DNA of 32,101 nucleotides from Pseudomonadota bacterium. GTDB lineage: Bacteria > Pseudomonadota > Gammaproteobacteria > Steroidobacterales > Woeseiaceae. The translations under genes were made by a program, and so were the position numbers. The notes below the pieces were generated by a model that did no database searches, was not told the DNA's origin, and saw only the letters and a program-made list of their open reading frames with translations. Below are positions 1 to 26,770 of this stretch, one piece after another. The stretch spans positions 1-32,101 of the forward strand of contig JAQCAD010000038.1 in assembly GCA_027621915.1 (NCBI GenBank), given 5' to 3'. How positions within the stretch are numbered: the stretch's first letter is position 1; each line of letters begins with the position of its first letter.

Positions 1-732
1 CATCGTCGCATCGAATGTCATCGGCGAATTGGCGTTAATCAGGCTGGTGATCACCGTGTTTTGTTCGACGAACTCGTCACCAAAGACGATTTTCGCCATA
101 TCGACGGAATCCTGAGCCCTTTCAGGTGCCGTGACAGAACCCATGAATGGTTTGTCGCTGTACTTGATATGGCTGTACACCATATCGAAATGTCGTTTAT
201 TGACAGGCAGATCGACGGGTTCGCATACCGTACCGCCGGAATGGTGCAAGCCCGGACTCATATAAGCCAGCTTGACGAAGTTACGAAAATCTTCGATCGA
301 TGCGTAGCGTCGGCCCTTGTCGAGGTCCCGTACAAACGGCGATCCGTAGGCCGGCACAAGCACGGTTCGTTTGCCACCAATAACGACGTTGCGGCCGGGA
401 TTACGCGCGTGCTGTGTGTACTCGGATGGCGCGGTAGCCTGCACAATGGATCGGCATAAGCCACGCGGAAATCGCACGCGCTCACCGTCTATATCGGCGC
501 CTGCATCCTTGAACAATTTCAGCGCCCGCGGAAACTCCTTGAATTCGATGCCGATTTCCTGCAACACGGTTTCCGCATTGTGCTCAATCAGTTGCAGCGC
601 TTCTTCCGAGAGCATTTCGAAGTACGGAATTTTGCGGTCAATATAAGCAGCCGTCGATGTTGGCATCTTCTGGCGCGCGATGCGCCGGGCCTCGCGACCA
701 GCACTTCGTTTTCTGGGTGGATTGCTGCTCAT
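1..732 (-). CDS. MttB-family methylamine/betaine:corrinoid methyltransferase, N-terminal part, cut by window edge
   Basis: The reading frame is open for 244 codons from ATG at 732 to the first base of the window, so the C-terminal half lies outside. The protein matches the N-terminal half of the trimethylamine methyltransferase (MttB) superfamily, usually about 480-520 residues; the stretch reading SPGLHHSGGTVCEPVDLP and the following DKPFMGSVTAPERA are typical of non-methanogen members. Family members move a methyl group from a quaternary or tertiary amine to a cognate corrinoid protein in the cytoplasm. Substrate cannot be read from this half; glycine betaine, carnitine, gamma-butyrobetaine or proline betaine are candidates given the carnitine genes upstream. 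The pyrrolysine codon of archaeal MttB would lie beyond the window, so it cannot be excluded, but I expect a non-pyrrolysine member. A weak AGGTG site precedes the ATG. It differs clearly from the second MttB homologue at 13.7-15.2 kb, so the two probably have different substrates. Confidence 0.85.
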   Translation of the reverse strand, partial: MSSNPPRKRSAGREARRIARQKMPTSTAAYIDRKIPYFEMLSEEALQLIEHNAETVLQEIGIEFKEFPRALKLFKDAGADIDGERVRFPRGLCRSIVQATAPSEYTQHARNPGRNVVIGGKRTVLVPAYGSPFVRDLDKGRRYASIEDFRNFVKLAYMSPGLHHSGGTVCEPVDLPVNKRHFDMVYSHIKYSDKPFMGSVTAPERAQDSVDMAKIVFGDEFVEQNTVITSLINANSPMTFDATM

Positions 733-937
733 GATTGCACCTGGTCTGTAGCCCAAAATAAATACTAATCGCTTGGTTTGAAAAACATTTTTTGGCAGCG
801 AAGTGTGTTCCAGTTACCGTCCCGCTGCATGGTCAATTGCGACATTGTTCTGGTCAAAAGCGACAATTATCGCGGCTGGCGAACCCCGGCAGGGACCATC
901 TCGGCCGCGCCGCCGGCGTCAGTATGGCCGGCATGAA
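733..937 (-). promoter_or_regulatory. Intergenic region with AT-rich tract, possible promoter for the MttB-family gene
   Basis: About 205 bp separate the aldehyde dehydrogenase remnant from the MttB-family start. Roughly positions 755-795 are markedly AT-rich in a GC-rich setting, and on the minus strand contain TAGTATTTAT-like -10 material, but no clear -35 box. This suggests the methyltransferase can be transcribed independently of the upstream carnitine operon. The rest of the stretch shows no gene. The promoter is inferred from composition and spacing only. Confidence 0.3.
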
Positions 938-1385
938 TCAGAACGTTCTCGGTACGCTCCCAAGGTTCGCGTAAATCGTCTTTACCTGTGTGTAGTACTG
1001 AATCGCCTGGATTCCGTTTTCCCTGCCCAGGCCGGACTGTTTATAGCCACCGAAAGGCACTTCGGGCGGCGTTACGTTGTAATCATTGATCCAGACCGAG
1101 CCTGCCTGGAGCCGGTTAGCAACTCGATGTGCGCGACTGAAATCCCTCGTGAATACAGCACTCGACAGGCCAAACCGGGTGTTGTTCGCCCGATCGATCG
1201 CTTCGTCCTCCGTCTTGAACGACAAAACAGACATTAAAGGTCCGAACACTTCTTCGCGCACGAAACTCATATCGTCGCGACAATCGGCAAAAATTGCTGG
1301 TGACATAGGCACCGCCGACATAGTTCCGCTGTTTCGGCAGCGTGGTCCCGGGTCCGCAGATGTTGGGCATATCAAGCTTTGTCAT
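938..1385 (-). pseudogene. Betaine-aldehyde-type aldehyde dehydrogenase, internally deleted and frameshifted
   Basis: Two pieces of one aldehyde dehydrogenase lie in different frames. The N-terminal piece starts with ATG at 1385, whose bases overlap the upstream TGA in an ATGA junction, and reads through LPKQRNYVGGAYV, a normal start for a BetB-like enzyme. At about 1298-1303 it meets, in another frame, the family's C-terminal portion: PAIFADCRDD, VREEVFGP, FGGYKQSGLGRENG, ending at TGA 938-940. About 350 residues are missing, including the nucleotide fold and the catalytic Cys and Glu. An intact enzyme has about 490 residues; here about 28 plus 115 remain. Both breakpoints fall at a GAYV-type motif that occurs near both ends of such enzymes, so a deletion between short repeats is plausible. 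The intact ancestor might have oxidised trimethylaminobutyraldehyde or betaine aldehyde; this is inferred from its neighbours. An assembly error is the alternative. Confidence 0.8.
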
Positions 1386-3454
1386 TGGGTAGCCTGATCC
1401 TCGTCACTTCGCCTGCGAATGAATGCATCGACCGCGACGACGCCTTTTGGTAACACCAGTAAAGGATTTACGTCGAGTTCGAGCAATGAATCATGATGCT
1501 GGACAGCATAACGGCCAATTGCCTCGATGGCATCCAGGAGCGCCTGCCGGTCACCGGCCAATTGGGTGCGAAATCCCGCTAACAGCCGGTTTGCCTTGAG
1601 TGACCCGATCGCCACGTCTATTTCGTGACGTTGTGCCGGCAACAGTACGGGGACGGTGTCATCGAGCAACTCGACCAGGGTGCCGCCAACTCCAATCAAC
1701 ATGGTAAGACCGAAGGTCCTGTCTCTGCTGACGCCGACGATCATTTCGACCACTGTCGGGCCCACCATTTTTTCGATCAGGAACCGGTCAAATCGGTCGC
1801 TCATTCTGTGCAACGCGGCGGCTACGGCTTCACTGCTACCCAGATTGATGGCGACGGCACCTGCCTCGCTCTTGTGGGCAAGTTCGCTGGAAACTGCTTT
1901 CAATACGAGCGGATAGCCCAGCGTCTCGGCGGCATCGAGCACTTCAAGAGCGCTGCACAGGCGGCCGTCCGGCACCTCCAGGCCACAACCAACCAGTTCC
2001 TGCTTGCTGTCCCATTCATCCAGCGCAGTCGCTGGTCCGTCGTACCCGGCTGCAGCCATCACGGGTAACACGATTTCAACATTGCGTTGTGCCCGACCGA
2101 TGAAAGCCGCGGCCCGAATGGCATACAGACAATCGTCGATGCCTTGCATCGGTGCGATACCGGCAGCTTTAAGGCGGTTTCTGGCGCTTTGGGGCATTGT
2201 TTCCGGCAGTGAGGACACAATCACCGCATGGCGACCGGTAGCCGCTACTGCGCCGACCAATGCACGCTCGGCGATCTCCCAGTTTGCGGTTCGGTCGCCG
2301 TCACCGGGTGGGTAGTCGAGTACGAGCAGGGTGCAGGCGAATTGATTATTGAGTACCTCGGCAAAGCAGTCGCGCAACTTGTCGTAATTGCCCCAGACGT
2401 AAAGGTGATAGTCCAGCGGATTCGAGATGTGCACGTTAGGCCCGAGTAATTTCTGCAGCGTCGCGGCGGAATGATCGGAGAATGACGGCGTACTCAAGTG
2501 CAACGCTTCGGCACAATCAGCAACCAGCGACGCATCGCCGCCGGAGCAGCTCATCGATCCTATCGTGTCATCGGCCAACGGACCGACAAGAGACAGGAAC
2601 TTGAGTGTTTCAACAAACTGCGACAAAGAATCGCAGCGTGCGATGCCCACCCTTTTGAATAATGCAGTGTAAAGTTTATCGGATCCGGACAGTGAACCCG
2701 TATGGCTCAAGGTTATCTCAGCACCGCGTGATGAGCGCCCGGTTTTAAGCGCGACGATCGGAATACCTTGGTGCAATGCCCGAATGGCTGCACTGGAAAA
2801 TGCCGCAACATCATCTATGCCCTCGATGTGCAGACCAATTGCAGTGACGCGTGGGTCCATAAGCAATGCGTCAATGTAGTCGTGGATTCCCAGTGTGCTG
2901 TTGTTTCCCACCGAAATGACATAGCCATAGTCGAGGCCACGTTGCTGCATGGTCAGGTTGATCGCTATGTTGCCGCTTTGCGAGATCAGGGCGACACCGC
3001 GATCGACCCGATTGCCACCGTGTTGATCCGGCCAAAGCGCAACGCCGTCAAGATAATTCAGGTAACCATGGCAATTCGGTCCGATCACCGCCATGTGTCC
3101 GGCCGCGTCCCGAAGGCGTCGCTGCAATCCGGCCCCATCGTCACCGATTTCCGCGAAACCGGCAGCGAAGCAAACGGCCCCCGGTGCACCCAGCGCCGAC
3201 AATTCCCGAACGATCTGAAGTGATGCCTCCGGAGGTGCCGCGATGAAGCTTGCATCGGGGACTGAGGGCAGGTCATTGACGCTCGCCACGCATGGAACGC
3301 CGGCCAACTCTTTCCTGCCAGGGTTAACGGCCCAGAGTTCTCCCCCAAAACCAATGGCTTTGCACTGGCGGATAACCTCCGCTGCGCTCTCGCCACCGAT
3401 TACTGCGATCGATCCGGGAGTTAGCAATCGCATCAGCGCGCGTGCACGAGACAT
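1382..3454 (-). CDS. Acyl-CoA synthetase, NDP-forming (ADP-forming acetyl-CoA synthetase family)
   Basis: A protein of 690 residues with the fused ACD architecture: CoA-binding Rossmann domain (about 1-130, with SIAVIGG and the GPNCHGYLN segment), succinyl-CoA-synthetase-like domains with phosphohistidine motif SHTGS (His at about 251), and a C-terminal ATP-grasp domain (about 470-690, with VLKAVSSELAHKSEAGAV). The family interconverts acid + CoA + NTP and acyl-CoA + NDP + phosphate through a phosphohistidine. Between caiD and the aldehyde dehydrogenase remnant, the likely job is activation of gamma-butyrobetaine or crotonobetaine, replacing CaiC. Because the reaction is reversible it could also recover NTP from betainyl- or carnitinyl-CoA. 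I chose ATG 3454, preceded by AGGG seven bases upstream, over an in-frame TTG at 3469. The gap to caiD is 18 bp. Its stop overlaps the next start (ATGA). Family is secure; substrate is inferred. Confidence 0.9.
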   Translation of the reverse strand: MSRARALMRLLTPGSIAVIGGESAAEVIRQCKAIGFGGELWAVNPGRKELAGVPCVASVNDLPSVPDASFIAAPPEASLQIVRELSALGAPGAVCFAAGFAEIGDDGAGLQRRLRDAAGHMAVIGPNCHGYLNYLDGVALWPDQHGGNRVDRGVALISQSGNIAINLTMQQRGLDYGYVISVGNNSTLGIHDYIDALLMDPRVTAIGLHIEGIDDVAAFSSAAIRALHQGIPIVALKTGRSSRGAEITLSHTGSLSGSDKLYTALFKRVGIARCDSLSQFVETLKFLSLVGPLADDTIGSMSCSGGDASLVADCAEALHLSTPSFSDHSAATLQKLLGPNVHISNPLDYHLYVWGNYDKLRDCFAEVLNNQFACTLLVLDYPPGDGDRTANWEIAERALVGAVAATGRHAVIVSSLPETMPQSARNRLKAAGIAPMQGIDDCLYAIRAAAFIGRAQRNVEIVLPVMAAAGYDGPATALDEWDSKQELVGCGLEVPDGRLCSALEVLDAAETLGYPLVLKAVSSELAHKSEAGAVAINLGSSEAVAAALHRMSDRFDRFLIEKMVGPTVVEMIVGVSRDRTFGLTMLIGVGGTLVELLDDTVPVLLPAQRHEIDVAIGSLKANRLLAGFRTQLAGDRQALLDAIEAIGRYAVQHHDSLLELDVNPLLVLPKGVVAVDAFIRRRSDEDQATQ

Positions 3455-3472
3455 AGCGTTGCCCTGCAACCG

Positions 3473-4258
3473 TTACTTGCCTTGCCAGACCGGGTCGCGT
3501 TTTTCTGCAAACGCACGCGCACCCTCGAGCTGATCTTCACTGGAGTAGAGCGCATCGACGGTTGAAAATTCACGACCGGTTATTTTTTTAAGCGCCGGCA
3601 GGAATTGCATGTTTTCAGCTTCCCGCACGACTTCCTTGATTGCCGCATAAACCAAAGGTGGTCCCGCTTCGATTACCCGTGCGATCTCCCAGGCCCGTTC
3701 CATCAATTGCGCAGCCGGCACGATTTCATTCACGAATCCCCAGCGATTGCCCTCAACGGCGTCGAGCCAGCGACCGGTTAACAACATCTCCATGGCAATG
3801 TGATACGGAATGCGTTTCGGCAATTTGATTGACGCGGCGTCGGCTACCGTGCCGGAACGAATTTCCGGTAATGCAAACGTTGCGTGATCGGCCGCAATGA
3901 TGATGTCGGCGCACAATGCGATTTCAAACCCACCGCCGCAGCAGATGCCATTCACCGCGCAGATCACCGGCTTGTTGAAATTCTCCAGTTCCTGGATGCC
4001 ACCGAACCCGCCGATGCCGTAGTCACCATCGACCTCTTCACCGCCTGCAGCCGCTTTGAGGTCCCAACCTGCAGAAAAAAACCGGTCGCCGCCACCGGAA
4101 ATGATTGCGACTCGCAGCTTCGGGTTGTCCCGAAAATCGGAAAAAATCTCACCCAGGCGAGTGCTGGTTGCGCGATCGATAGCGTTGGCTTTCGGGCGAT
4201 CGATGATGACTTCGAGAATACCACCGTCCGTACGCGTTTTAACTTCTGCTGCTGTCAT
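3473..4258 (-). CDS. caiD: Crotonobetainyl-CoA hydratase / carnitinyl-CoA dehydratase (CaiD-like)
   Basis: A 261-residue crotonase that resembles E. coli CaiD throughout: RPKANAID near 21, FFSAGWDLKAAA at about 60-71, GGGFEIALCAD at about 108, and the C-terminal AFAEKRDPVWQGK that is nearly diagnostic of CaiD. The two glutamates used by CaiD are present (about E112 and E132). The enzyme adds water to crotonobetainyl-CoA to give L-carnitinyl-CoA, reversibly, in the cytoplasm. It starts at ATG 4258, 14 bp after the acyl-CoA dehydrogenase stop, and is followed by the synthetase gene. In this cluster it probably runs toward carnitinyl-CoA so that carnitine can be oxidised by the dehydrogenase two genes upstream. 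In enterobacteria the same enzyme serves anaerobic carnitine reduction instead. No CaiB CoA-transferase is present in the window. Confidence 0.92.
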   Translation of the reverse strand: MTAAEVKTRTDGGILEVIIDRPKANAIDRATSTRLGEIFSDFRDNPKLRVAIISGGGDRFFSAGWDLKAAAGGEEVDGDYGIGGFGGIQELENFNKPVICAVNGICCGGGFEIALCADIIIAADHATFALPEIRSGTVADAASIKLPKRIPYHIAMEMLLTGRWLDAVEGNRWGFVNEIVPAAQLMERAWEIARVIEAGPPLVYAAIKEVVREAENMQFLPALKKITGREFSTVDALYSSEDQLEGARAFAEKRDPVWQGK

Positions 4259-4272
4259 GTTGAGTTTCCGGA

Positions 4273-5433
4273 TCAGGATTCCAGGGGCCGCAATAATTCA
4301 CGACTGATTATGTGCCTTTGTATCTCGGATGTGCCGTCCCAGATCCTTTCGACGCGCGCATCGCGCCAGAAGCGTTCGAGCGGTAAATCACTCATCAGTC
4401 CCATGCCACCAAAAATCTGCAGCGCCTCGTCTGTGACCCGAGCCAGCATTTCTGTCGCATAGAGTTTCGCGCTCGCGATCTCACGATTGCACGGTAAGTC
4501 CCTGTCGACACGCCAGGCTGCCGACAGCGTCAGCCAGTCAGCGGCATCAATCTCGGTAATCATGTCCGCCAGCTTGAACGAGATGCCCTGGAATTTGCCG
4601 ATCGACTGCCCAAATTGCTTGCGCTCGACGCAGTAAGGCACGGCCAGGTCCAGGACACGTCGCGCCCGGCCTACGCTCATCGTAGCAACGGTGAGCCGGG
4701 TCGCTCGCAACCAGCGATTGGCCAGTTCAAATCCGCGATGCGGTTCACCAAGCATCTGCGTCCCGGGTAAACGGCAATTGTCAAAGTTCAATATAGAGTT
4801 GTGATATCCCCGGTGCGACACGGATTCGTACCCGGTTCGAATTTCGAAACCGGGAGTTCCCCGGTCAACCAGGAAGCAGCTTATTTTCTTTTTCGGTCCT
4901 CGAGAGGTTTCCTCCTCGCCGGTGGCGACAAACACGATGACAAAGTCCGCAATATCGGCATGGCTGATAAAGTGCTTGCTGCCATTGACAACCCAGTCGC
5001 TTCCATCCTCGCGGGCATTGCACTTCATGCCTCGCACATCGGATCCGGCATCAGGCTCGGACATCGCCAGCGCGTCAAATTTTTCGCCTGCGATCGCCGG
5101 CAACAAATAACGCTCACGTTGTTCACCCTCGCAGGCAACGAGAATTCCGGAGGGTCGCCCGAAATAAACACTGAGCGCCATCGAGGCTCGCCCCAGTTCC
5201 CGTTCCAGCAAGGTGAAGTCCAAATGATTCAGCCCACCACCACCGAATTCCTCAGGCATGTTGGCAGCAAAAAAACCGATTTCCTTGCACTTCGCGGCAA
5301 TCGACTGTCCCAGTTCGGGCGAGACCTTGCCGGTTCGCTCAACTTCGGCTTCGTGCGGATACAGTTCATTTTCAACAAACGACCTGACGGTATCCACGAT
5401 CATTTGCTGTTCGTCGCTCAGTGCAAAATTCAT
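4273..5433 (-). CDS. Acyl-CoA dehydrogenase, probable gamma-butyrobetainyl-CoA (CaiA-like) dehydrogenase
   Basis: A 386-residue flavin-dependent acyl-CoA dehydrogenase with the three standard domains: N-terminal helices (LSDEQQMIVDTVRSFV), the middle FAD region (AMSEPDAGSD at about 123-132), and the C-terminal bundle (RKQFGQSIGKFQ, LQIFGGMGL, WDGTSEIQRHI). I start it at ATG 5433, where the conserved N-terminus begins, rather than at an in-frame start upstream that would overlap the previous gene. By context it desaturates gamma-butyrobetainyl-CoA to crotonobetainyl-CoA, passing electrons to an ETF not seen here. It sits 13 bp after the carnitine dehydrogenase gene and 14 bp before caiD. The residue aligned with the usual catalytic Glu of short/medium-chain enzymes (YEGTSEIQR) is Asp, at about 366. 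No alternative Glu of the isovaleryl-CoA dehydrogenase type is apparent. Function is inferred from context. Confidence 0.85.
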   Translation of the reverse strand: MNFALSDEQQMIVDTVRSFVENELYPHEAEVERTGKVSPELGQSIAAKCKEIGFFAANMPEEFGGGGLNHLDFTLLERELGRASMALSVYFGRPSGILVACEGEQRERYLLPAIAGEKFDALAMSEPDAGSDVRGMKCNAREDGSDWVVNGSKHFISHADIADFVIVFVATGEEETSRGPKKKISCFLVDRGTPGFEIRTGYESVSHRGYHNSILNFDNCRLPGTQMLGEPHRGFELANRWLRATRLTVATMSVGRARRVLDLAVPYCVERKQFGQSIGKFQGISFKLADMITEIDAADWLTLSAAWRVDRDLPCNREIASAKLYATEMLARVTDEALQIFGGMGLMSDLPLERFWRDARVERIWDGTSEIQRHIISRELLRPLES

Positions 5434-5446
5434 AGTGCTTTGCCCG

Positions 5447-6907
5447 TTATCGCTGGCCAACAAATCGACCTGCTGTCTCTGGTTTCGGCAAAGTCGAATG
5501 TGCACTCGACATTGCCATCAGTTTTGCCGTCGCAGCGCTTTGGGCAGCTGCAACCTTGCCCGACTGCGTATTTACGTGCAGGTACATCGCCTCCAGTGTC
5601 GCCAGCAGTCGGTCATCGGCGGCGGCGTGCATGCGATAGAAAACATGCAGCCTTTTTGCATCCGCCATCAGAATCTGTGCGGTTGTGTAATAAGGCTCGT
5701 TCGCGCCGACCTCATCGTAGTATTGATTGTGCGTTTCAGCGGTGTAGTAACTGTGGCCAGCCGCTACATAGTCGTCATGCAGCCCGACTCGTCTTAGCAA
5801 CGCTTCGCAGCTATCGCTGAACACCTGGACGTAACGAAACTCAGTCATGTGACCGTTGTAATCGATCCAGGCGGGCAGAACGGTGGATTCAAGCAGGCGC
5901 GTTGGTGCCGAATCGTCAATCGACGCTGCATCACCGGTCATTTTGGCGAGTCGTTTGTCATTCTGATTCAGAATTCGGCCTGCGCCCCAGTCACGTTCTT
6001 TCAGGGAACGCAGGAATCCGACGAGGTTGCGATCACGTATCGCCTCAAGTTCGCGTATCCCGTATTGGCCGGACTGCGCATCGGACTGGCTGGCAATCTT
6101 CTGCACCAGTTCCTCATCGAGATCCGGCACATCGGTCAATTTGGTCCATGGCCACGCGAGGCACGGTCCGAATTGACGAATGAAATGCGCCATGCCTTCT
6201 TCACCGCCGGCCAGACGATAAGTTTCGAAAAGTCCCATCTGTCCCCAGCGCAGGCCGAAGCCGTAACGAATCGCGTTATCGATTTCTTCGGTCGTCGCAA
6301 TGTCGTCCTTGATCAGCCACAACGCTTCGCGCCACACGGCTTCCAGGAATCGATCCGCGATATGGGCGTCGATCTCGTGGCGGACTACCAACGGCTCCAT
6401 GCCGATCGAACGCAATAACTCGCAGGCCCGATCCCGAACGTCGTCGCTGCAACCGGGACCGGCAACGACTTCGGCTAACGGCAGCAGGTAAACCGGGTTA
6501 AAGGGATGTGCAACCAGTATCTGTCCGGGCCTGATCGCGCCGGCCTGCAACTCGCTGGGTTTGAAACCCGACGTAGACGAGCCAAGGATCGCGTGTGCCG
6601 GTGCATGCTTTTGAATTTCGGCGATGACTTTGTGTTTCAGCGCGAGCTCTTCCGGAACGCTTTCCTGAATCCAGTCGGCCTCGGCTACCGCCTGGGCCAA
6701 GGATGCCGCATAGCTCAGCTTGCCTCTCGCTGGCATCGGTACGTCGGCCAGTGCGGGCAGACTTTTGCCGGCGTTTGCCAGGATCTCTGCTATTTGCGTC
6801 CTGACCCGCGGATTCGGATCGGACACGGCCACGTCCCAGCCGTGTAACAGGAATCGTGCAGCCCAGCCGCCACCGATTACGCCGCCACCAACAATGGCTG
6901 CTTTCAT
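5447..6907 (-). CDS. lcdH: L-carnitine dehydrogenase fused to a betainyl-CoA thioesterase-type domain
   Basis: A 486-residue two-domain protein. Residues 1-325 are a 3-hydroxyacyl-CoA-dehydrogenase-type NAD oxidoreductase: dinucleotide motif GGGVIG at 7-12, SSTSGF at about 110, and the HPFNP catalytic-His region at about 134. This is the L-carnitine dehydrogenase subgroup, which makes 3-dehydrocarnitine. Residues about 335-486 are a hot-dog thioesterase with LPAWIDYNGHMTEFRY; Asp349 is the likely catalytic acid. In Pseudomonas these activities are separate genes (cdhA and cdhB); fusions are known elsewhere. The thioesterase should release glycine betaine from the betainyl-CoA made by the BKACE enzyme encoded just upstream, with which this gene shares a 4-bp ATGA overlap. 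A role for the thioesterase on carnitinyl-CoA is also possible, since no CoA-transferase is nearby. Cytoplasmic. Confidence 0.9.
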   Translation of the reverse strand: MKAAIVGGGVIGGGWAARFLLHGWDVAVSDPNPRVRTQIAEILANAGKSLPALADVPMPARGKLSYAASLAQAVAEADWIQESVPEELALKHKVIAEIQKHAPAHAILGSSTSGFKPSELQAGAIRPGQILVAHPFNPVYLLPLAEVVAGPGCSDDVRDRACELLRSIGMEPLVVRHEIDAHIADRFLEAVWREALWLIKDDIATTEEIDNAIRYGFGLRWGQMGLFETYRLAGGEEGMAHFIRQFGPCLAWPWTKLTDVPDLDEELVQKIASQSDAQSGQYGIRELEAIRDRNLVGFLRSLKERDWGAGRILNQNDKRLAKMTGDAASIDDSAPTRLLESTVLPAWIDYNGHMTEFRYVQVFSDSCEALLRRVGLHDDYVAAGHSYYTAETHNQYYDEVGANEPYYTTAQILMADAKRLHVFYRMHAAADDRLLATLEAMYLHVNTQSGKVAAAQSAATAKLMAMSSAHSTLPKPETAGRFVGQR

Positions 6908-7815
6908 CGCGGCGCGCGTTTCGTCAGTTGCAGTTTTTCGCGCACTGCCGCTGGCGTCATTACCCTGGCACCCATCGCCTCGATAATCGTCACCGCGCGT
7001 TCAACCAATTGCGCGTTAGTAGCCAACACACCTTTGTCGAGATACAGGTTGTCTTCGAGCCCGACGCGCACATTGCCGCCCGCCAGCACGGCCGCGGCAA
7101 CATATGGCATTTCATTTCGACCCAGGGAAAAGGCAGAGAAATGCCAATCACCGGGAACGTTCGCGACCATTGCCATAAAAGTATTGAGATCATCCGGCGC
7201 ACCCCAGGGAACGCCCATGCACAACTGTACGAGGATTGGTGATTTGATTATTCCCTCAGCGGCCAGTTGCTTGGCGAACCACAAATGCCCGGTGTCGAAT
7301 GCCTCTATTTCGACGCGCACGTCAAGGTCGGTCATCATTTGTCCCATCGCACGCAGCATGCCGGGTGTATTGGTCATGACGTAGTCGGCTTCGGCGAAAT
7401 TCATTGTGCCGCAGTCGAGCGTGCAGATTTCGGGCAGACATTCGGCCACATGTTCGACGCGCTCGGCCGCTGACGCCATGTCGGTGGCAGCTTCATTCAA
7501 TGGTAGCGGCGCTTCGGCCGGCCCGAATATCAGGTCGCCGCCCATTCCGGCCGTCAGGTTGATGACGACATCGGTATCCGCTGCGCGTATACGTTCGGTA
7601 ACCTCGCGGTAGAGGTCGACGCGACGGGAGTGCTTGCCGGTTTTTGGATCGCGTACGTGACAATGTACGATCGCGGCACCCGCTTTGGCCGCGTCAATCG
7701 CACTGTCCGCGATTTCTTTGGGCGTTCGCGGCACATGCGGCGACTTGTCTTGTGTATTGCCCGAACCGGTTACGGGGCAGGTAATAAATACTTCTCTGTT
7801 CATTGCCAAAGGCAT
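6904..7815 (-). CDS. cdhC: Beta-keto acid cleavage enzyme (BKACE/DUF849), dehydrocarnitine-cleaving
   Basis: A 303-residue TIM-barrel BKACE. Expected metal ligands are visible: H51 and H53 in VHCHVRDP and E254 in VGLEDN. BKACE enzymes condense a beta-keto acid with acetyl-CoA and split it into a CoA ester and acetoacetate. The 3-dehydrocarnitine member gives betainyl-CoA plus acetoacetate. Assignment to dehydrocarnitine rests on the directly coupled carnitine dehydrogenase/thioesterase gene (4-bp overlap) and the N-terminal ITCPVTGSG and TQDKSPHVPRTP segments common in this subgroup. It is the first gene of the minus-strand catabolic operon. ATG 7815 is preceded by a strong GGAGG about seven bases upstream, which favours it over the second ATG at 7803. 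The divergent region on its upstream side carries palindromes that may control it. Confidence 0.88.
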   Translation of the reverse strand: MPLAMNREVFITCPVTGSGNTQDKSPHVPRTPKEIADSAIDAAKAGAAIVHCHVRDPKTGKHSRRVDLYREVTERIRAADTDVVINLTAGMGGDLIFGPAEAPLPLNEAATDMASAAERVEHVAECLPEICTLDCGTMNFAEADYVMTNTPGMLRAMGQMMTDLDVRVEIEAFDTGHLWFAKQLAAEGIIKSPILVQLCMGVPWGAPDDLNTFMAMVANVPGDWHFSAFSLGRNEMPYVAAAVLAGGNVRVGLEDNLYLDKGVLATNAQLVERAVTIIEAMGARVMTPAAVREKLQLTKRAPR

Positions 7816-8084
7816 GGTGTTTCCTCCACTGGATGGGAGACTGAATAAAGGCTTGTTGTGGCGCAGGCGTCAGGAACGGGTCTGGAAATCAGTCTGGTAA
7901 ACCGTTGTCGGGTTTACAACGGCGGCGGCCACCAATCGAGCACTTTTTCGTAGCACCACAAAATTTTCATGACTTTGACTGCAGGAGTAGAGCGTTCGAG
8001 CTTAGTGCATACCTTAACTGCCGACAAGATGCGTGCAAAAAGATTGTCTGCAGAGGTTGTTTTCTGGCAGCGCGATGAAGCACG
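7816..8084. promoter_or_regulatory. Divergent promoter region with two overlapping palindromes
   Basis: This 269-bp region separates the leftward carnitine operon from the rightward dehydrogenase pair, so it should hold promoters for both. GTAAACC at 7897-7903 and GGTTTAC at 7911-7917 form a perfect inverted repeat with a 7-bp spacer. CGTTGT at 7903-7908 and ACAACG at 7916-7921 form a second one overlapping the first. The 21-25 bp symmetry suits a dimeric regulator such as a GntR, LysR or AraC type, but none is encoded in the window. A Shine-Dalgarno GGAGG for the leftward gene lies near 7822-7828. I could not fix -10/-35 boxes with confidence. No convincing gene is present. Confidence 0.45.
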
Positions 8085-10538
8085 ATGTGGCTTCTGGTTT
8101 CGGGGGAGACGATCATTCAAACGCATGCCCAAATTGTCATCATAGGCGGCGGCATTATGGGTGTCGGTCTCCTTTATCACCTGGCGGAGGAGGGCTGTTC
8201 CGAGCTCTTGCTGATCGAAAAGGGCGAGCTGACGTCCGGCTCGACCTGGCATGCGGCAGGCCAGTGCCCCAGCCTTGTCGGCAATTACAATCTCGCCAAG
8301 ATTCACGCGTATGGCAATAATCTTTACCCACGCCTCGAGGGTTTGACCGGCCAGTACGTCAGTTGGCATGCATCGGGTGGCATCCGGCTGGCGCGCGAGC
8401 AGCAGGATCTGGACTGGTTCAAGTATTTACGTGGCATCTCGCAAAGTGTTGGATTCGAGATGGAAATCATTGGCCCGGACGAGATCAGGCGCATCATGCC
8501 GCATATGAACATGGCCGGCGTTATTGCGGGCGCCTACACGACGGAAGATGGTCACGCTGATCCTTCCGGGCTTACCAATGCAATGGCGCGCGGCGCGACC
8601 AACATGGGCGCGAAAATCGTGCGCCACAATCGTGTTCTTGACATCAATCTCCTGCCGTCCGGCGAGTGGGAAGTCGTGACCGAGCAAGGGAACGTCATCG
8701 CCGAAACGGTCGTCAATGCGGCCGGTTGCTATGCGCGCCAGGTTTCACAGATGGTCGGCAGCGATATGCCGCTCGTCAACATGGAACACCAGTACATTGT
8801 CACCGGCAACGTGCCCGAATTCGTCGCCAGCGATGTCGAAATACCGGTGATTCGCGATCCGCGTGCATCGTCCTACATACGACAGGAACAGAAATGCGGC
8901 CTTATCGGAATCTACGAAGGCGAACGCATGACCGAGGCCTGGGCACCAAACGGGTATCCACCGTGGGAATCCGATAGTGAGTTGTTTCCTGATGATCTCG
9001 ATCGACTGATGCCATGGCTCGGGCATGCGATGGAACGATTGCCGATACTCGAAGACGCCGGCATCAAGCGGATTGTGAATGGTGCTATTCCTCATCCGCC
9101 CGACGGGCCGCCGTACCTCGGCCCGGTCGCCGGCCTGAAGAATTTCTGGTTGTGCTGTGGCTCGTCGTTCGGCATCGCCCAGGGTGCGGGATGCGGCAAA
9201 TACCTCGCGCAATGGATGGTGCATGGCGATGCAGAAATCAACATGACCGGATTTGATCCGCGCAGACTCGGTGTTTTTGCCGACGAAAACTATGCGCGCG
9301 CCAAGGGCTTCCAGGACTATCGGATGACGTACACGACGCCGCTGCCCGGCGAGGAGTTGCCGGCCGGTCGGCCGCGGCGAACGAGCCCGCTATACGAAAA
9401 ACTTAAGAGTAAAGGTGGCGTGTTCACGGAGACATTCGGCTGGGAGCGACCGAAATGGTATTCGCCTGATGGCCGTGAGGAAAATTACAGTTACCGCAAC
9501 AACAATGTTTTCGAAATCGTTCGCGACGAATGCCTCGCAGTCAGAGAACGAGTCGGCATTCTGGATCTCAGTGGATTTGCCAAATACGACGTGAGTGGAC
9601 CAGACGCCGGAAATTTCCTGAATCGGTTATGTGCCAACAGTATGCCGGCGAAGAATGGCGGCATTGTGCTTGCACACATTTTATCCAAAAACGGACGCAT
9701 TCTTGGCGAGGTGACGGTCACCCGACTGGGTGATGATCGTTACTATTTATTGTCTGCCGCGGCAGCAGAGCTTCGCGATCTCGACCACCTGATGCAAGGG
9801 CGCCTTCCTGCCGAGGAGGTCACGGTCGAAAACGTCACTGATGGTCGTGGCGTACTGGTGCTGGCCGGGCCCAGGGCCCGTGAGGTATTGGCGAAACTGA
9901 CCAGGACGGATCTCACCAACGCATCGTTTCGCTGGCTGACGGCGAGGGAAATTTCAATTGCGGGCATCCCGCTTCGGGCCTTGCGCGTCAACTATGTTGG
10001 GGAACTTGGCTGGGAGTTGCATCCGGCAATGCAGGATCTGCCCAGGTTGTACGAGGCTTTATCGGAAGCTGGCAGCGAATTCGGTATCGCCGATTTTGGT
10101 TTGTATGCAGTGAACAGTCTTCGTATGGAAAAAGGCTATAGAGGCTGGGGTGGCGAGCTGACCAACGAAGTGACGATGCTGGATGCAGACATGGAACGAT
10201 TCCTGAAACTCGACAAAGATCACTTTACCGGCAAAGAGGCGACGCTCGAACAACTGAAAAAGCAGCGACTGTTGCAGTTGGTCTACTTCGAAGTTGACGC
10301 CGGCGATTCGGACGTACGGGGAAACGAGCCGATTTTTTCCGGTCAAACCTGTGTCGGCGTTACGACGTCAGGTGGCTATGGGCACTTCGTCAGGAAGAGC
10401 CTCGGTTTCGGATATGTGACACCCGGTCTTTCGAGCCCGGGCACCGAGCTGGAAATCGGACTCCTGGGCGAGCGACGCATGGCGCGAGTGCGAAAGGACG
10501 CAGCGCACGATCCGGACAATGACAGACTGCGGGCCTGA
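8085..10538 (+). CDS. FAD-dependent dimethylglycine/sarcosine dehydrogenase-like protein with GcvT domain (first copy)
   Basis: An 817-residue protein with an N-terminal FAD oxidoreductase (GGGIMG near 21-26), a flavin-linking His in STWHAAG (about H56), a linker domain ending near 430, and a C-terminal folate-binding GcvT/GCV_T_C region (about 440-800, with NYVGELGWELH and NSLRMEKGYRGWGGELTNE). Such enzymes oxidatively demethylate dimethylglycine, sarcosine or related N-methyl compounds and transfer the one-carbon unit to tetrahydrofolate. By context it acts downstream of glycine betaine. The start is uncertain: ATG 8085 has only weak upstream support, whereas GGGGGAG at 8102-8108 stands just before in-frame ATC 8112 and ATT 8115, which would give an N-terminus typical of the family (IQTHAQIVIIGGG). 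The second copy follows after 3 bp, so both are probably cotranscribed. Confidence 0.88.
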   Translation: MWLLVSGETIIQTHAQIVIIGGGIMGVGLLYHLAEEGCSELLLIEKGELTSGSTWHAAGQCPSLVGNYNLAKIHAYGNNLYPRLEGLTGQYVSWHASGGIRLAREQQDLDWFKYLRGISQSVGFEMEIIGPDEIRRIMPHMNMAGVIAGAYTTEDGHADPSGLTNAMARGATNMGAKIVRHNRVLDINLLPSGEWEVVTEQGNVIAETVVNAAGCYARQVSQMVGSDMPLVNMEHQYIVTGNVPEFVASDVEIPVIRDPRASSYIRQEQKCGLIGIYEGERMTEAWAPNGYPPWESDSELFPDDLDRLMPWLGHAMERLPILEDAGIKRIVNGAIPHPPDGPPYLGPVAGLKNFWLCCGSSFGIAQGAGCGKYLAQWMVHGDAEINMTGFDPRRLGVFADENYARAKGFQDYRMTYTTPLPGEELPAGRPRRTSPLYEKLKSKGGVFTETFGWERPKWYSPDGREENYSYRNNNVFEIVRDECLAVRERVGILDLSGFAKYDVSGPDAGNFLNRLCANSMPAKNGGIVLAHILSKNGRILGEVTVTRLGDDRYYLLSAAAAELRDLDHLMQGRLPAEEVTVENVTDGRGVLVLAGPRAREVLAKLTRTDLTNASFRWLTAREISIAGIPLRALRVNYVGELGWELHPAMQDLPRLYEALSEAGSEFGIADFGLYAVNSLRMEKGYRGWGGELTNEVTMLDADMERFLKLDKDHFTGKEATLEQLKKQRLLQLVYFEVDAGDSDVRGNEPIFSGQTCVGVTTSGGYGHFVRKSLGFGYVTPGLSSPGTELEIGLLGERRMARVRKDAAHDPDNDRLRA

Positions 10539-10541: not shown

Positions 10542-12986
10542 GTGACTGAACTTCCAAAAAAAGCGAACGTTGTCGTTATCGGGGGAGGCGTCATTGGTTG
10601 TTCGATTACCTATCACCTGGCCAAACTTGGCTGGTCCGACGTTGTTCTTCTTGAGCGTCAACAGCTGACCAGTGGCACAACCTGGCATGCTGCTGGCCTG
10701 GTCGGACAACTTCGCAGTTCCATCAATATGACCAGGCTCGCAAAATATACGAGCGAGTTGTATCGGGGTCTCGAAGCGGAAACGGGGCAGGCGACCGGGT
10801 ATCGACAGTGCGGATCAATTTCGGTCGCTACCAATGCCGAGCGTTTCGAAGAACTGAAACGCAGTGCATCGATGGCGAAAGTGTTTGATCTTGAAGTTAA
10901 TGTCGTTGCGGCCGATGAAATCGCCAGGCGCTATCCGCTGGTCAACGACGAGGATCTGCTTGGCGGAATTCATATTCCCTCGGATGGCTATGCCAATGCC
11001 GTCGACATCACCCAGGCGCTTGCGAAGGGTGCGCGCAGTAACGGCGCGCAAGTTTTTCAAAACACCAGGGTCACGCAGATCAGGCACGACGGTTCGCGTG
11101 TGACAGGCGTATCTACGCCATCCGGCGATATCGAAGCAAAGTATGTCGTGATTTGCGGTGGCATGTGGTCACGGGATCTCGCCGCCAGCATCGGCGTTAA
11201 CCTGCCACTGCACGCCTGCGAGCACTATTACGTTCTGTTTGAATCGGTCGAAGGGCTAAGCCCGGACTTGCCGGTCTTACGCGACTACGATGCCTGCACG
11301 TATTACAAGTACGATGCCGGCAAACTGCTCGTGGGCGCTTTCGAACCAACTGCAAAACCCTGGGGCATGGACGGCATCGCCGATGATTTCTGTTTCGATG
11401 AAATCGCCGGTGATTTCGATCACTTCGAACCTGTGCTGCAGGGTGCGATGCATCGGGTGCCGGCGCTGCAAAATGCAGGCATACAGAAATTCTTTTGCGG
11501 CCCCGAGAGCTTCACACCGGATGTCCGCTATCACCTGGGCCAGGCGCCGGAGCTCGAAAATTGTTATGTGGCAGCCGGCCTGAACTCGATCGGCCTGCAG
11601 TCGGCTGGCGGCATTGGCAAGGTCATGTCGGAATGGATCCGGGACGGTTACCCGCCGGCGGACCTTTGGGAAGTGGATGTGCGGCGCAATATGCGCTTTC
11701 AGGGTAATCGCAAGTATTTACGCGAGCGCGTCAGTGAAAGCCTTGGACTGCTGTATGCAACGCATTGGCCGTATCGGCAGTACGAAACCGCTCGCGGCGT
11801 ACGAAAGTCTGCCATACACGATCGACTGGTCGCGGCGGGTGCCTGCCACGGCGAGGCCTTTGGCTGGGAACGCCCGAACTGGTACGCGCCCAAAGGGGTC
11901 GATGCGAGATACGAGTACAGCTACGGCAGGCAGAACTGGTTCGAATTCTCCGCCGCCGAGCACGCGGCTGTGCGTAGCGGCGTTGGCTTGTTCGATCAGT
12001 CCTCATTCGCAAAGTTTCGACTGGAAGGACGGGATTCGACCAGAGTTTTAAACCGGATTTGTGCGAACGATATCGATCGTCCGATCGGGCGCCTCGTCTA
12101 TACACAATGGCTTAACGAAAGAGGCGGTATCGAGGCAGATCTGACGGTGACACGAATCGACGAGCATTCGTTTTTGGTCGTGACTGCGGCCGAAACGGAA
12201 GTTCGCGATTTCTCGTGGCTCAAAACGCACATTCCGGCTGATGCGCATTGTGTACTCACGAATGTAACGTCGGGAATGGGCGTAATCTCGATTATGGGTC
12301 CGCGCGCTCGCGAGCTGTTGCAATCGCTTACGCCGGCGGACATGAGCGACGCTGCATTTCCGTTCGCGACCAGCCAGGAAATTGAGTTGGGCTACGCGAT
12401 CGTACGCGCATCAAGAATCACCTTCGTAGGCGAACTCGGTTGGGAACTGTATGTGCCCACTGAGTTCATGCCTGGTGTCTACGACGAGATTATTGCGGCA
12501 GGGGTCGAATTTGACTTGGTGCACGCCGGCTACCACGCCCTCAACTCGCTGCGTATCGAGAAAGCGTATCGGCACTGGAGTCACGACATTACAGACGAAG
12601 ACACGCCGCTCGAAGCAGGATTGGGATTTGCTGTAAAAATGGCAAAGGCCGGAGGGTTTATCGGCCGCGACGCCCTGATGACCCAACAGGAACGAGGTCT
12701 CGACAAGCGTCTTTTGCAGTTCAGGCTACAGGATCCACAGCCGCTCTTGTATCACAACGAACCGATCTGGCGTGACGGAAAGCTGGTAGGGCACATCCGG
12801 TCCGGCGCCTACGGACACACGCTGGGAGGCTGCATCGGGCTCGGTTACGTCAGTACGGAACCGGGTATGAATTCAGGCGAAATTCTGGATAGCAATTATG
12901 AGATTGAAATCGCCGGTGAGCGCGTCGCGGCCGATGCATCTTTTCGACCCATGTATGACCCGGGTAACCAGCGAATCCGCACTTGA
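10542..12986 (+). CDS. FAD-dependent dimethylglycine/sarcosine dehydrogenase-like protein with GcvT domain (second copy)
   Basis: An 814-residue paralogue of the preceding protein with the same domain order: GGGVIG at 14-19, flavin-linking TWHAAG (about H49), a catalytic region containing GPESFTPDVRYHLG at about 325, and a GcvT portion with FVGELGWELY and NSLRIEKAYRHWSHDIT. Predicted role: oxidative removal of an N-methyl group and its transfer to tetrahydrofolate, in the dimethylglycine to sarcosine to glycine segment. It begins with GTG 10542, 3 bp after the previous stop. The HYHLGQAPEL-like segment is closer to classical dimethylglycine dehydrogenase than is the first copy, so the two may take successive substrates. 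It ends 12 bp from the convergent corrinoid gene with no obvious terminator between. Exact substrate is inferred. Confidence 0.9.
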   Translation: MTELPKKANVVVIGGGVIGCSITYHLAKLGWSDVVLLERQQLTSGTTWHAAGLVGQLRSSINMTRLAKYTSELYRGLEAETGQATGYRQCGSISVATNAERFEELKRSASMAKVFDLEVNVVAADEIARRYPLVNDEDLLGGIHIPSDGYANAVDITQALAKGARSNGAQVFQNTRVTQIRHDGSRVTGVSTPSGDIEAKYVVICGGMWSRDLAASIGVNLPLHACEHYYVLFESVEGLSPDLPVLRDYDACTYYKYDAGKLLVGAFEPTAKPWGMDGIADDFCFDEIAGDFDHFEPVLQGAMHRVPALQNAGIQKFFCGPESFTPDVRYHLGQAPELENCYVAAGLNSIGLQSAGGIGKVMSEWIRDGYPPADLWEVDVRRNMRFQGNRKYLRERVSESLGLLYATHWPYRQYETARGVRKSAIHDRLVAAGACHGEAFGWERPNWYAPKGVDARYEYSYGRQNWFEFSAAEHAAVRSGVGLFDQSSFAKFRLEGRDSTRVLNRICANDIDRPIGRLVYTQWLNERGGIEADLTVTRIDEHSFLVVTAAETEVRDFSWLKTHIPADAHCVLTNVTSGMGVISIMGPRARELLQSLTPADMSDAAFPFATSQEIELGYAIVRASRITFVGELGWELYVPTEFMPGVYDEIIAAGVEFDLVHAGYHALNSLRIEKAYRHWSHDITDEDTPLEAGLGFAVKMAKAGGFIGRDALMTQQERGLDKRLLQFRLQDPQPLLYHNEPIWRDGKLVGHIRSGAYGHTLGGCIGLGYVSTEPGMNSGEILDSNYEIEIAGERVAADASFRPMYDPGNQRIRT

Positions 12987-12998: not shown

Positions 12999-13697
12999 TC
13001 AGGCGCGTTTCTTTGCCATGAGGGCCAACGCAGTCTCGACTGCGATACCCGCATCACGACAGTACGCATCTGCGCCAATCGCTTTGCCAAATTCTTCGTT
13101 CAACGGCGCGCCGCCGACCATGACGATGTAGTCGTTACGCATGCCTTTCTCAATAAGCGTATCGATGACGACTTTCATGTACGGCATGGTTGTCGTTAAC
13201 AACGCAGACATCCCCAGTATGTCTGGTTTGTGTTCTTCGAGTGCGCCGAGATAATCGTCCACCGAGTTGTTGATGCCGAGATTGACAACCTCGAAACCGG
13301 CACCTTCCATCATCATGCTGACCAGGTTCTTGCCGATGTCGTGAATGTCGCCTTTGACCGTTCCGATAACCATCTTGCCTACGGGCTTCGCGCCGGTTTC
13401 CGCCAGCAGCGGTTTAAGGATCGCCATGCCGCCTTTCATCGCATTCGCGGCGAGCAGTACTTCGGGCACAAACAGGATGCCGTCGCGAAAATCAATACCG
13501 ACGATTGTCATGCCGTCGACCAGCGCAGTGTTCAGTACTTTTTCGGGTGACCAACCCCGCGCGAGCAGGATCTTCGTACCCTCGATAATTTCGTCGAGCA
13601 TGCCGTCGTACAGATCGTCATGCATTTGCAATACGAGCTCATCGTCAGGAAGTGCTGCCAGATCAATCTCGTCATCAAAGTCCTTGTCATCACTCAT
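12999..13697 (-). CDS. Methyltransferase corrinoid protein (MttC/MtgC-type)
   Basis: A 232-residue cobalamin-binding protein. It has an acidic N-terminal extension, the helical methionine-synthase cap domain (about 20-100, including FVPEVLLAANAMKGG), and a B12-binding Rossmann domain with the DxHxxG motif GDIHDIG (D117, H119, G122), where the His is the lower cobalt ligand, then a VGGAPLNEEFG loop. It accepts the methyl group from the MttB-family enzyme encoded immediately upstream and hands it to a methyltransferase acting on tetrahydrofolate. I prefer ATG 13697 (AGGA ten bases upstream, 1 bp after the MttB stop) over GTG 13706. No corrinoid reductive activator and no methylcorrinoid:folate methyltransferase are present in the window. 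Confidence 0.92.
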   Translation of the reverse strand: MSDDKDFDDEIDLAALPDDELVLQMHDDLYDGMLDEIIEGTKILLARGWSPEKVLNTALVDGMTIVGIDFRDGILFVPEVLLAANAMKGGMAILKPLLAETGAKPVGKMVIGTVKGDIHDIGKNLVSMMMEGAGFEVVNLGINNSVDDYLGALEEHKPDILGMSALLTTTMPYMKVVIDTLIEKGMRNDYIVMVGGAPLNEEFGKAIGADAYCRDAGIAVETALALMAKKRA

Positions 13698-13698
13698 G

Positions 13699-15360: not shown

Positions 15361-16914
15361 CTAAGTGCTTTCTTCCCGCAGTCCTTTATAGAGGCTCACA
15401 CACATTAACAGGAGCACGAAGCAAAACGGCAGGCCAACCGATATGGCCAGAGCCTGAAGTGAGGCCACCCCGCCGCCGAGCAACAATACGATAGCGACCA
15501 GGCCTACCAGCACGCACCAGAAAACTCTCTGACGCACCGGCGCATCCATTTTCCCACCCGCCGTGATCATATCGACGACCAGTGATCCCGAATCGGCCGA
15601 GGTGACAAAAAATATCGCGATGAGGACCAGTCCCGCAGCAGAAACGAACTCGGTAAACGGCAGGCCTTCGAGCATCTTGAACAACGCGAGCTCCGGTGCC
15701 GAGTCTGCGACGCCTCGGTAACCATCGACGAGAAGCTGTTGCAATGCTGTGCCACCGAAAGTTGACATCCAGATAATGCCAATAACGGTCGGTATGAGCA
15801 AAACCCAGATTACGAATTCACGTGCAGTCCGTCCGTAACTGATACGCGCGATGAACATGCCGACAAACGGTGACCAGGAAACCCACCAGGCCCAGTAAAA
15901 CGTCGACCAGTCGTGGTAGAAAGCGGTGTCTTCGCGGCCGATCCAGTTGCTCAGGCGCGGCAGGTAATAGAGGTAGTCGACAGTTGCTGTTACGAATGTT
16001 TTTAAGAGAATCAGTGTTGGCCCCGCAATGATGACAAACAGGACCAACACACCGGCCAGGACCATGTTGATTTCACTGAGCAGTTTTACGCCCCTGTCCA
16101 ATCCTGTAACGACGGAGACCAGCGCGATGGAAATAATTCCGGTAACAAGGACAACCTTGGTTGTTCCGGTAGGTGAAATACCAAACAGGTAATTGAGCCC
16201 GCCGGCCATTTGTTCTGCGCCCAGTCCCAGGGACGTCGCCAGTCCAAATATCGTCGCCAGCACGGCAGTGACATCAATGACGTGACCTAACGGCCCCCAA
16301 ACGGCCTTGCCGAAGAGCGGATAAAATGCCGAGCGCATCGTGAGCGGCAGGCCACGGTTGAAACAGAAAAACGCAAGCGCGAGGCCGACGAGTGCATAGA
16401 CACCCCAAGCGTGCAGGCCCCAATGCGCGATCGCTGCCGACATCCCGGCCGCGGTTGCTGCAGCGGTATCTTCCGGATCAATGCCCAATGGCGGATGCAG
16501 GGAATGCGTGACCGGTTCAAGGACGCCGAAGAACATCAGTCCAATGCCGACGCCGGCCGCAAACAGCATGGCAAGCCAGCCCGCGTACCCGTAACGAGGC
16601 TTGGCGTCCGGCCCACCCAACCGCACTCGCCCTAACTTGCTGACCGCGATGTAGATGCAAAAAAGCACGAATACGTTCATTGAGATCATGAACGTCCAGT
16701 CAAATTTTGTGGTGATCCAAACCTTCAGGTTCGCAAAAGCAACGCCAGCAGTATCGAGAAAAATGAGCGTTCCGGCGACGAACGCGACCACAAGAGCGGC
16801 AGACACCGGGAATACGACGTGATGAAAATCAAGACCGAGAAACCGGACATTGTCCTGGCCGATTTCATAGTTGACGACTGTCTTTTGTTCGGTGGAATTG
16901 TTATTGACAGGCAA
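15361..16914 (-). CDS. BCCT-family betaine/carnitine/choline transporter
   Basis: A 517-residue inner-membrane protein with about twelve hydrophobic segments. BCCT hallmarks are the GVGIG glycine-rich stretch of TM3 (about 121-125, followed by LMFFGVLEP) and the aromatic signature WAWWVSWSPFVG at 341-352 in TM8, which lines the quaternary-ammonium site. It imports betaine, carnitine, gamma-butyrobetaine or a relative for the adjacent catabolic genes. There is no long C-terminal osmosensing tail, consistent with a nutritional rather than osmotic role. The N-terminus requires a TTG start at 16914, which is well placed seven bases after GGAG; no ATG or GTG lies nearby in frame. The exact substrate and coupling ion cannot be decided by eye. 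Confidence 0.92.
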   Translation of the reverse strand: MPVNNNSTEQKTVVNYEIGQDNVRFLGLDFHHVVFPVSAALVVAFVAGTLIFLDTAGVAFANLKVWITTKFDWTFMISMNVFVLFCIYIAVSKLGRVRLGGPDAKPRYGYAGWLAMLFAAGVGIGLMFFGVLEPVTHSLHPPLGIDPEDTAAATAAGMSAAIAHWGLHAWGVYALVGLALAFFCFNRGLPLTMRSAFYPLFGKAVWGPLGHVIDVTAVLATIFGLATSLGLGAEQMAGGLNYLFGISPTGTTKVVLVTGIISIALVSVVTGLDRGVKLLSEINMVLAGVLVLFVIIAGPTLILLKTFVTATVDYLYYLPRLSNWIGREDTAFYHDWSTFYWAWWVSWSPFVGMFIARISYGRTAREFVIWVLLIPTVIGIIWMSTFGGTALQQLLVDGYRGVADSAPELALFKMLEGLPFTEFVSAAGLVLIAIFFVTSADSGSLVVDMITAGGKMDAPVRQRVFWCVLVGLVAIVLLLGGGVASLQALAISVGLPFCFVLLLMCVSLYKGLREEST

Positions 16915-18852: not shown

Positions 18853-18894
18853 ATCGACTCCTGAATTTTTCTATCCTCGCACAGTATAGAGACC

Positions 18895-19167
18895 TTATCC
18901 CCATCGCATAAGTAGTGCCGCCCAAATCACGGAAAGGGCGGAGGCGATAACAAGACCGTCCGCAACGGTGCCCAGCCACAACAGATGAATGAATGCAGCA
19001 CTCAACAGGCTGATAAAGAAACGGTCGCCCCGAGTGGTGGCCATAGGCAAAAAACCGCGGGCTGACTCGGTAGGTTGCAGCACCTCCCAAACGGTCATCA
19101 GCACCAGGGCGATGCCGACGCCGGCAAAAAAAATTGCAGTCTCGGTAGTCCACGCCATCCAGTTCAT
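18895..19167 (-). CDS. DUF2160 small integral membrane protein of the Glp ABC importer locus
   Basis: A 90-residue protein with three hydrophobic segments (about 10-30, 48-65 and 68-88) opening MNWMAWTTETAIFFAG. This small DUF2160 membrane protein is characteristically encoded between glpQ and glpV in GlpSTPQV loci, and that is its position here. Its role is unproven; it may be an accessory subunit of the importer. Start ATG 19167 lies 24 bp after the glpQ stop, and glpV follows after 42 bp. The family assignment is strengthened by the exact gene order. Confidence 0.8.
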   Translation of the reverse strand: MNWMAWTTETAIFFAGVGIALVLMTVWEVLQPTESARGFLPMATTRGDRFFISLLSAAFIHLLWLGTVADGLVIASALSVIWAALLMRWG

Positions 19168-19191
19168 CGTTGCCGTCTCAAAACGCGCATT

Positions 19192-21863: not shown

Positions 21864-21864
21864 T

Positions 21865-26579: not shown

Positions 26580-26618
26580 AATGCGAGGACAGTAACGCAG
26601 CGGCAAAAGAAGCGGCAA

Positions 26619-26764: not shown

Positions 26765-26770
26765 GCCATC

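Follow-up and report, generated by a model that had tools for sequence, protein, structure and literature searches.

In Sinorhizobium meliloti the catabolic pathway from gamma-butyrobetaine (GBB) to glycine betaine reportedly needs only five enzymes for seven steps. The protein SM2011_c01638 of this organism oxidises carnitine and also converts betainyl-CoA to glycine betaine, and KCE takes part in the conversion of 3-dehydrocarnitine to betainyl-CoA (passages of PMC12482172, the former citing Bazire 2019); BcoAB, named GBB:CoA ligase, made GBB-CoA with ATP and CoA (a passage of PMC8364193). At the product end, corrinoid-dependent demethylation of glycine betaine by MtgBCD is described for Ruegeria pomeroyi in the relevant part of PMC12478193. 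We have analysed the first 32,101 bases (from here on, the window) of contig JAQCAD010000038.1, which belongs to a Woeseiaceae-like gammaproteobacterium with a genome of 3.56 Mb in 101 contigs. This stretch very probably carries a catabolic operon of the S. meliloti kind, leading from GBB to glycine betaine and probably continued by the adjoining demethylation genes.

The operon is formed by five open frames in a tight run on the minus strand, from 7815 down to 1382 (Table 1). Read 5' to 3', the first two overlap by 4 bases and the following ones are separated by 13, 14 and 18 bases, counting the ligase from the ATG at 3454, a numbering that places its SHTG motif at residue 250; the end of the ligase overlaps in turn a broken aldehyde dehydrogenase gene by 4 bases. 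Gene identities come from Pfam and NCBIfam profile scans, in which only the carnitine dehydrogenase fusion passes a curated cut-off, the other operon proteins being placed by domain or by best model. An earlier note on this DNA had described here a tightly spaced operon of six genes. All the functions that it named are indeed encoded, and the spacing is tight; the genes are five, because the thioesterase is the C-terminal part (4HBT_2, PF13279, residues 343-462) of the carnitine dehydrogenase protein, so that six functions reside in five genes.

Table 1. Features of the operon and its surroundings in the window (bits are profile scores)
Feature	Position	Strand	Evidence and remarks
MttB-superfamily methyltransferase, 5' part, MtgB-like	1..756	-	PF06253 319 bits; cut by contig end at window base 1
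Aldehyde dehydrogenase remnant, in two frames	938..1385	-	Retains roughly 30 codons of the start and the last 122; central part absent
ADP-forming CoA ligase, BcoAB-like	1382..3454	-	CoA_binding_2, Succ_CoA_lig and ATP-grasp_5
CaiD-type crotonase	3473..4258	-	Best NCBIfam model NF002936 crotonobetainyl-CoA hydratase, 309 bits, cut-off 500
Acyl-CoA dehydrogenase, clade A of two	4273..5433	-	Acyl-CoA_dh domains
Carnitine 3-dehydrogenase fused to 4HBT-type thioesterase	5447..6907	-	NF005716 728 bits, cut-off 592; 3HCDH domains
Beta-keto acid cleavage enzyme (BKACE)	6904..7815	-	PF05853 336 bits
Divergent spacer, operon versus demethylation genes	7816..8084		Open reading frame map
Two dimethylglycine/sarcosine dehydrogenase-like genes	8085-10538, 10542-12986	+	DAO, FAO_M, GCV_T and GCV_T_C in both
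MtgC-like corrinoid protein	12999-13706	-	NF047996 MtgC 196 bits, cut-off 370
Second MttB-superfamily protein	13699-15243	-	PF06253 360 bits
BCCT-family transporter, candidate uptake system	15361..16914	-	PF02028 592 bits

What the sequences show directly is gene order, protein families, orthology and genome context. The gene set of the window recurs in S. meliloti Ak57 (the locus tag SM2011_c01638 belongs to strain 2011) and in Rhizobium sp. Pop5. The Ak57 row (L041) reads GlxA-family regulator, BKACE, carnitine dehydrogenase, acyl-CoA dehydrogenase, a ligase stretch and caiD. Identities between the window and Ak57 are 75% for BKACE, 52% for the dehydrogenase-thioesterase, 79% for the acyl-CoA dehydrogenase and 75% for the hydratase, and the ligase matches the Ak57 ligase stretch in two pieces in different frames (47 and 42%). 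From its place we infer that this stretch is bcoAB. In the Ak57 record it lies at L041:11370-13402, in two frames and with no listed gene, and the ligase may be broken there. The window shares with the S. meliloti pathway the five protein families, the dehydrogenase-thioesterase fusion, the adjacency of the genes and the acyl-CoA dehydrogenase clade found at the Ak57 locus. It differs in ending with the hydratase and then the ligase (ligase and then hydratase in S. meliloti), in having neither a GlxA regulator in front nor an ABC transporter directly behind, and in belonging to a gammaproteobacterium with demethylation genes adjoining. We judge that the divergent GlxA regulator does not define this type of operon, its role being regulatory instead of enzymatic. 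What places the window locus among operons of the S. meliloti type is that the five families stand side by side, with the fusion, an ADP-forming ligase of the BcoAB type and a dehydrogenase of the rhizobial clade.

With each reaction and the direction of flow taken from these orthologues or from the S. meliloti work, the route would run as follows. The ADP-forming ligase, a predicted GBB:CoA ligase, would activate GBB with CoA and ATP, and the acyl-CoA dehydrogenase is predicted to be the flavin enzyme that oxidises gamma-butyrobetainyl-CoA to crotonobetainyl-CoA, its electrons passing by way of the electron-transferring flavoprotein (ETF) to quinone. The CaiD-type crotonase, predicted to be a crotonobetainyl-CoA hydratase, would yield carnitinyl-CoA, from which the thioesterase half of the fusion protein would release L-carnitine, to be oxidised to 3-dehydrocarnitine by the dehydrogenase half of the same protein. 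For BKACE the predicted reaction, which we take to be the one of this family here, is that of 3-dehydrocarnitine and acetyl-CoA to betainyl-CoA and acetoacetate, and the same thioesterase half would then free glycine betaine from betainyl-CoA, a total of seven steps by five proteins. Demethylation of the glycine betaine probably follows, through the products of the adjoining MtgC/MttB and dimethylglycine dehydrogenase-like genes.

Alternatively, the three initial CoA enzymes of this route might act on common short-chain fatty acids or hydroxy acids and share an operon with the carnitine genes by accident, and some of their scores are indeed generic: the best NCBIfam score of the dehydrogenase is to an acryloyl-CoA reductase (297 bits, cut-off 640), and the ligase scores best, though under the cut-offs, on models of CoA ligases for acetate or hydroxy acids. 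We nevertheless consider this very unlikely, as the three enzymes have carnitine dehydrogenase and BKACE for neighbours in two classes, the Pfam scan gives no thiolase among the five operon proteins, the crotonobetainyl-CoA hydratase model leads the next-best model of the crotonase by 92 bits and, in the passage on BcoAB (PMC8364193), the S. meliloti ligase served to make GBB-CoA.

The route from GBB through carnitine to glycine betaine had already been drawn in the earlier note, which called the assembled pathway an inference. The operon is real, well conserved and of a known kind, and orthology with the S. meliloti locus gives the route good support; the pathway of the note was probably right but already known, with family labels in need of correction. 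The oxidative direction that it had proposed agrees with the same orthology and is suited by the matches in the genome to an ETF-quinone oxidoreductase (one, of 167 bits) and to the haem-copper oxidase subunit I family PF00115 (five, of 46 to 533 bits). Flow the other way, from carnitine over crotonobetaine to GBB as an electron sink in the style of the cai system of Escherichia coli, finds some room in that the reactions can in principle be reversed and that reductases occur in the dehydrogenase family, the best-scoring model of the dehydrogenase (below cut-off) being one of them. It is likewise very unlikely: the carnitine dehydrogenase and BKACE of the same operon would drain carnitine to betaine, the respiratory matches just mentioned are present, and the CaiA, CaiD and CaiT models all stay under their cut-offs (170 of 540, 309 of 500 and 235 of 541 bits, respectively).

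These scores also tell against the names CaiA-like and CaiD given in the earlier note, and against its picture of an anaerobic cai system run in reverse. The S. meliloti proteins score alike, with 310 bits for the gene annotated caiD on the CaiD model and 184 bits for the acyl-CoA dehydrogenase on the CaiA model, and therefore these models miss the rhizobial family too. The ligase, which the note had counted with anaerobic carnitine respiration, belongs to the ADP-forming acyl-CoA synthetase group, and no AMP-binding (CaiC-type) domain was found in it by the Pfam scan. The window operon thus resembles caiTABCDE in having a dehydrogenase/reductase and a hydratase for CoA esters of GBB, crotonobetaine and carnitine, and departs from it in the ligase family, in the scores on the CaiA and CaiD models and in the opposite net direction. 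With the bbu cluster of Emergencia timonensis, which leads from GBB to trimethylamine (described in parts of PMC8364193), it has in common the handling of GBB as a CoA ester, an enzyme of the acyl-CoA dehydrogenase family and a BCCT transporter nearby. That system, as described there, uses class III CoA transferases and eliminates trimethylamine, whereas the window has a ligase and would lose no nitrogen. No class III CoA transferase (CaiB, BbuB/BbuC) was found in the Pfam scan among the five operon proteins, and therefore this is not a bbu cluster. Psychrobacter pP32BP2 was considered as an earlier case in which aerobic and anaerobic modules for carnitine are combined, and set aside, its CAR module being a monooxygenase route to trimethylamine and a different system.

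Other genomes were surveyed, as the earlier note had suggested. A search of 149 genomes of relatives with the dehydrogenase model gave 22 with a match at E <= 1e-100, the genome of the window among them, and wider stretches were examined for 19 loci (own genome, G031 and G033 left out). All five genes are present in 14 of these; in three of the 14 (L035, L036, L038) the cluster is similar except that the carnitine dehydrogenase lacks the thioesterase fusion, and a separate thioesterase was not found in their stretches at E <= 1e-3. Three genes are in place in L027 and L031, where the stretch is cut by the contig end, and in L022, L039 and L040 the dehydrogenase is present without the other four. 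For named genomes we retained the best 80 of 590 candidate places, a sample that leans to close relatives, with gene presence judged by bit cut-offs set for this analysis. Three of these loci (L046-L048) are probable duplicates of the relatives G081, G008 (of the genus of the window) and G049, so that the two counts overlap. The five genes occur together in 40 of the 80, mostly (36) in the order BKACE, dehydrogenase-thioesterase, acyl-CoA dehydrogenase, ligase, hydratase; three, metagenome-assembled genomes of Gammaproteobacteria, Woeseiaceae and Proteobacteria, share the order of the window, and in the remaining one the GBB half is divergent. That relatives retain the set as a whole shows that the genes do not lie side by side by chance. 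BKACE accompanies carnitine dehydrogenase in 77 of the 80 named loci. The two are found without the rest in 33 (four of them with <1.6 kb of sequence behind the dehydrogenase), and the carnitine half therefore often appears to be an independent unit, with the GBB half as an addition. The other seven loci have different subsets of the genes, and in six of these the contig ends nearby.

Several points weigh against reading the locus as an S. meliloti-type operon that works from GBB to glycine betaine. A GlxA-family regulator stands in all three Rhizobiales loci read and none beside the window operon; the open reading frame map gives no regulator gene within the divergent spacer, whose length, taken from match end to match end, is ca. 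106 to 310 bases across the window and six relatives. Identity of the ligase to those of the named alphaproteobacterial loci is only 38-49%, and both the CaiD-type and the MtgC-type genes lie under the curated cut-offs. In the three relatives without a fused thioesterase, carnitine release would need another enzyme. Finally, the pathway of this genome is a prediction from its genes. As to precedents, no earlier report was found in the literature that joins butyrobetaine with carnitine dehydrogenase and acyl-CoA dehydrogenase in a marine setting; judging by titles and abstract openings, none of the papers found on Woeseiaceae and betaine deals with a GBB operon, and the available parts of PMC12143400 and PMC5806209 contain nothing on the GBB half. 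The operon places a complete predicted route from GBB to glycine betaine in Woeseiaceae-like bacteria, beside genes for corrinoid betaine demethylation.

The acyl-CoA dehydrogenase slot of the operon is filled by members of two clades. We examined 101 loci (L046-L048 left out as probable duplicates), of which 62 gave dehydrogenase rows above 350 bits, longer than 330 residues and without a stop; with the window, the tree has 63 rows, L043 and L078 being the same record. It splits into 34 rows (clade A) and 29 rows (clade B) with support of 100/100. Clade A includes the window and most rhizobial rows, and a Hoeflea row (L089) falls in clade B; both clades are found in Alphaproteobacteria and in the family of the window. 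The active-site loops read FGRPSG or FGRPQ in clade A and WTCVARPSN in clade B. At what we take to be the catalytic-base position of this family, clade A has Asp in 31 of 34 rows, the window included, and Glu in three, and clade B has Glu in all 29.

A tree of the neighbouring genes (BKACE, dehydrogenase-thioesterase and hydratase), obtained by a quick search on 27 hand-chosen rows, groups the window with L028 and L030 (SH-aLRT 96), though both carry clade B (L028:9467-10627 and L030:9489-10649). On this tree the clade label needs six changes, at least five of them forced by well-supported branches; shuffled labels need 8.2 on average and are as low in 33 of 500 shuffles, so the label is also partly inherited. 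Compared in bins of 200 bases, the DNA of L030 matches that of the window at 71-86% over the first two genes, 52-72% over the acyl-CoA dehydrogenase and 72-84% over the hydratase, and the dehydrogenase gene of L029 (clade A) is 65-78% identical to that of the window. The ligase gene is also low, <72% against all three relatives compared, and therefore a low value is not by itself peculiar to the swapped gene. Over the first 30 alignment columns, L030 and L028 agree with the local clade A at 97 and 93%, respectively, and with five clade B rows from Alphaproteobacteria at 73 and 77%, which looks like a crossover in the region of codon 30. Such clade A-like columns are not seen in the other three relatives with clade B (L027, L032, L034). 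Each of ten genomes searched, five per clade, gave one match at E <= 1e-90. It could equally well be right or wrong, in our opinion, that the dehydrogenase has been swapped in place, repeatedly and across classes, between the two clades while its neighbours stayed. Replacement in place is the simplest reading, with an old duplication followed by loss as the alternative. Such a swap would perhaps change the electron acceptor or the substrate range, and the interchangeable clades are a natural comparison for asking what a single pathway step is selected for. The exchange may be a new detail; no literature search was aimed at it, and we do not claim its absence from print.

The aldehyde dehydrogenase remnant behind the ligase can be compared with an intact protein of 500 residues at the same place in the relative G007 (L026:3419-4921), which scores 755 bits on a betaine-aldehyde dehydrogenase model (cut-off 593). 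The C-terminus of the remnant is 80% identical to this protein over 122 residues, and its start matches weakly (44% over 18 residues, E 0.009). In another relative (L023) only a 33-residue trace of aldehyde dehydrogenase is left. It is possible that the gap is an assembly fault instead of a true deletion. Our guess is that the enzyme may once have supplied GBB from 4-trimethylaminobutyraldehyde, and a betaine-aldehyde-type dehydrogenase remnant in this position may be a new detail.

Around the operon, the set of an MtgC-like gene, MttB-type genes and dimethylglycine dehydrogenase-like genes recalls MtgBCD of R. pomeroyi as far as the consulted part of PMC12478193 describes it. The likeness concerns the product end only, with the MtgC-like protein below its model cut-off and the second MttB divergent. 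Of the loci of the 19 relatives, 10 have at least one of the two dimethylglycine dehydrogenase-like genes next to the operon, and these 10 belong to two genera (g1 and g11). For the MttB gene cut by the contig end, a full copy in L028 is 88% identical over 221 residues. The second MttB scores only 187 bits against glycine betaine methyltransferase structures and 173 against trimethylamine methyltransferase. The presence of two different MttB-superfamily genes near the operon (26-27% mutual identity in full copies from relatives) might suggest that they demethylate GBB or carnitine directly and skip the operon, in the manner of MtyB and MtcB of Eubacterium limosum, the former a GBB methyltransferase according to a passage of PMC8604678. 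This is also very unlikely, as it would make the five-gene CoA route superfluous and the MttB behind the operon, judged by its L028 copy, resembles the glycine betaine methyltransferase 9yce (440 bits) and, with a higher score, the unassigned protein 4yyc, a 'putative trimethylamine methyltransferase' (779 bits). If glycine betaine made by the operon is instead passed to these genes, GBB and carnitine could feed one-carbon metabolism without release of trimethylamine.

The BCCT transporter scores 501 bits on the betaine BCCT model (cut-off 650), above its CaiT score given earlier. A six-gene ABC transporter further on (17113-22821) was also considered as an importer of carnitine or GBB. Identity to a cluster beside the carnitine genes of Paracoccus seriniphilus is 61-68% for the binding protein and two permeases and 42% for a small membrane protein, and relatives of the binding protein are found on 261 plasmid records. 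Homologues of the binding protein stand with glpD in both contexts opened, and also with glpK in one, so that the system is most likely a glycerol importer and was rejected as a candidate.

Further along the window there is an integron integrase (25587-26618; TIGR02249 415 bits, cut-off 265), followed by small frames from ca. 26700 to 30700, three of which were scanned, two giving no match and one a weak match to T5orf172. Inverted repeats here have GTTAGAC/GTCTAAC-like cores, presumably the attC motif, which suggests attC sites of a cassette array. Behind this stretch lies an insertion sequence of the IS3 family (30731-32045), with the transposase in two frames (30781-31101 and 31098-32006) and with 39-base terminal inverted repeats that are 79% complementary.

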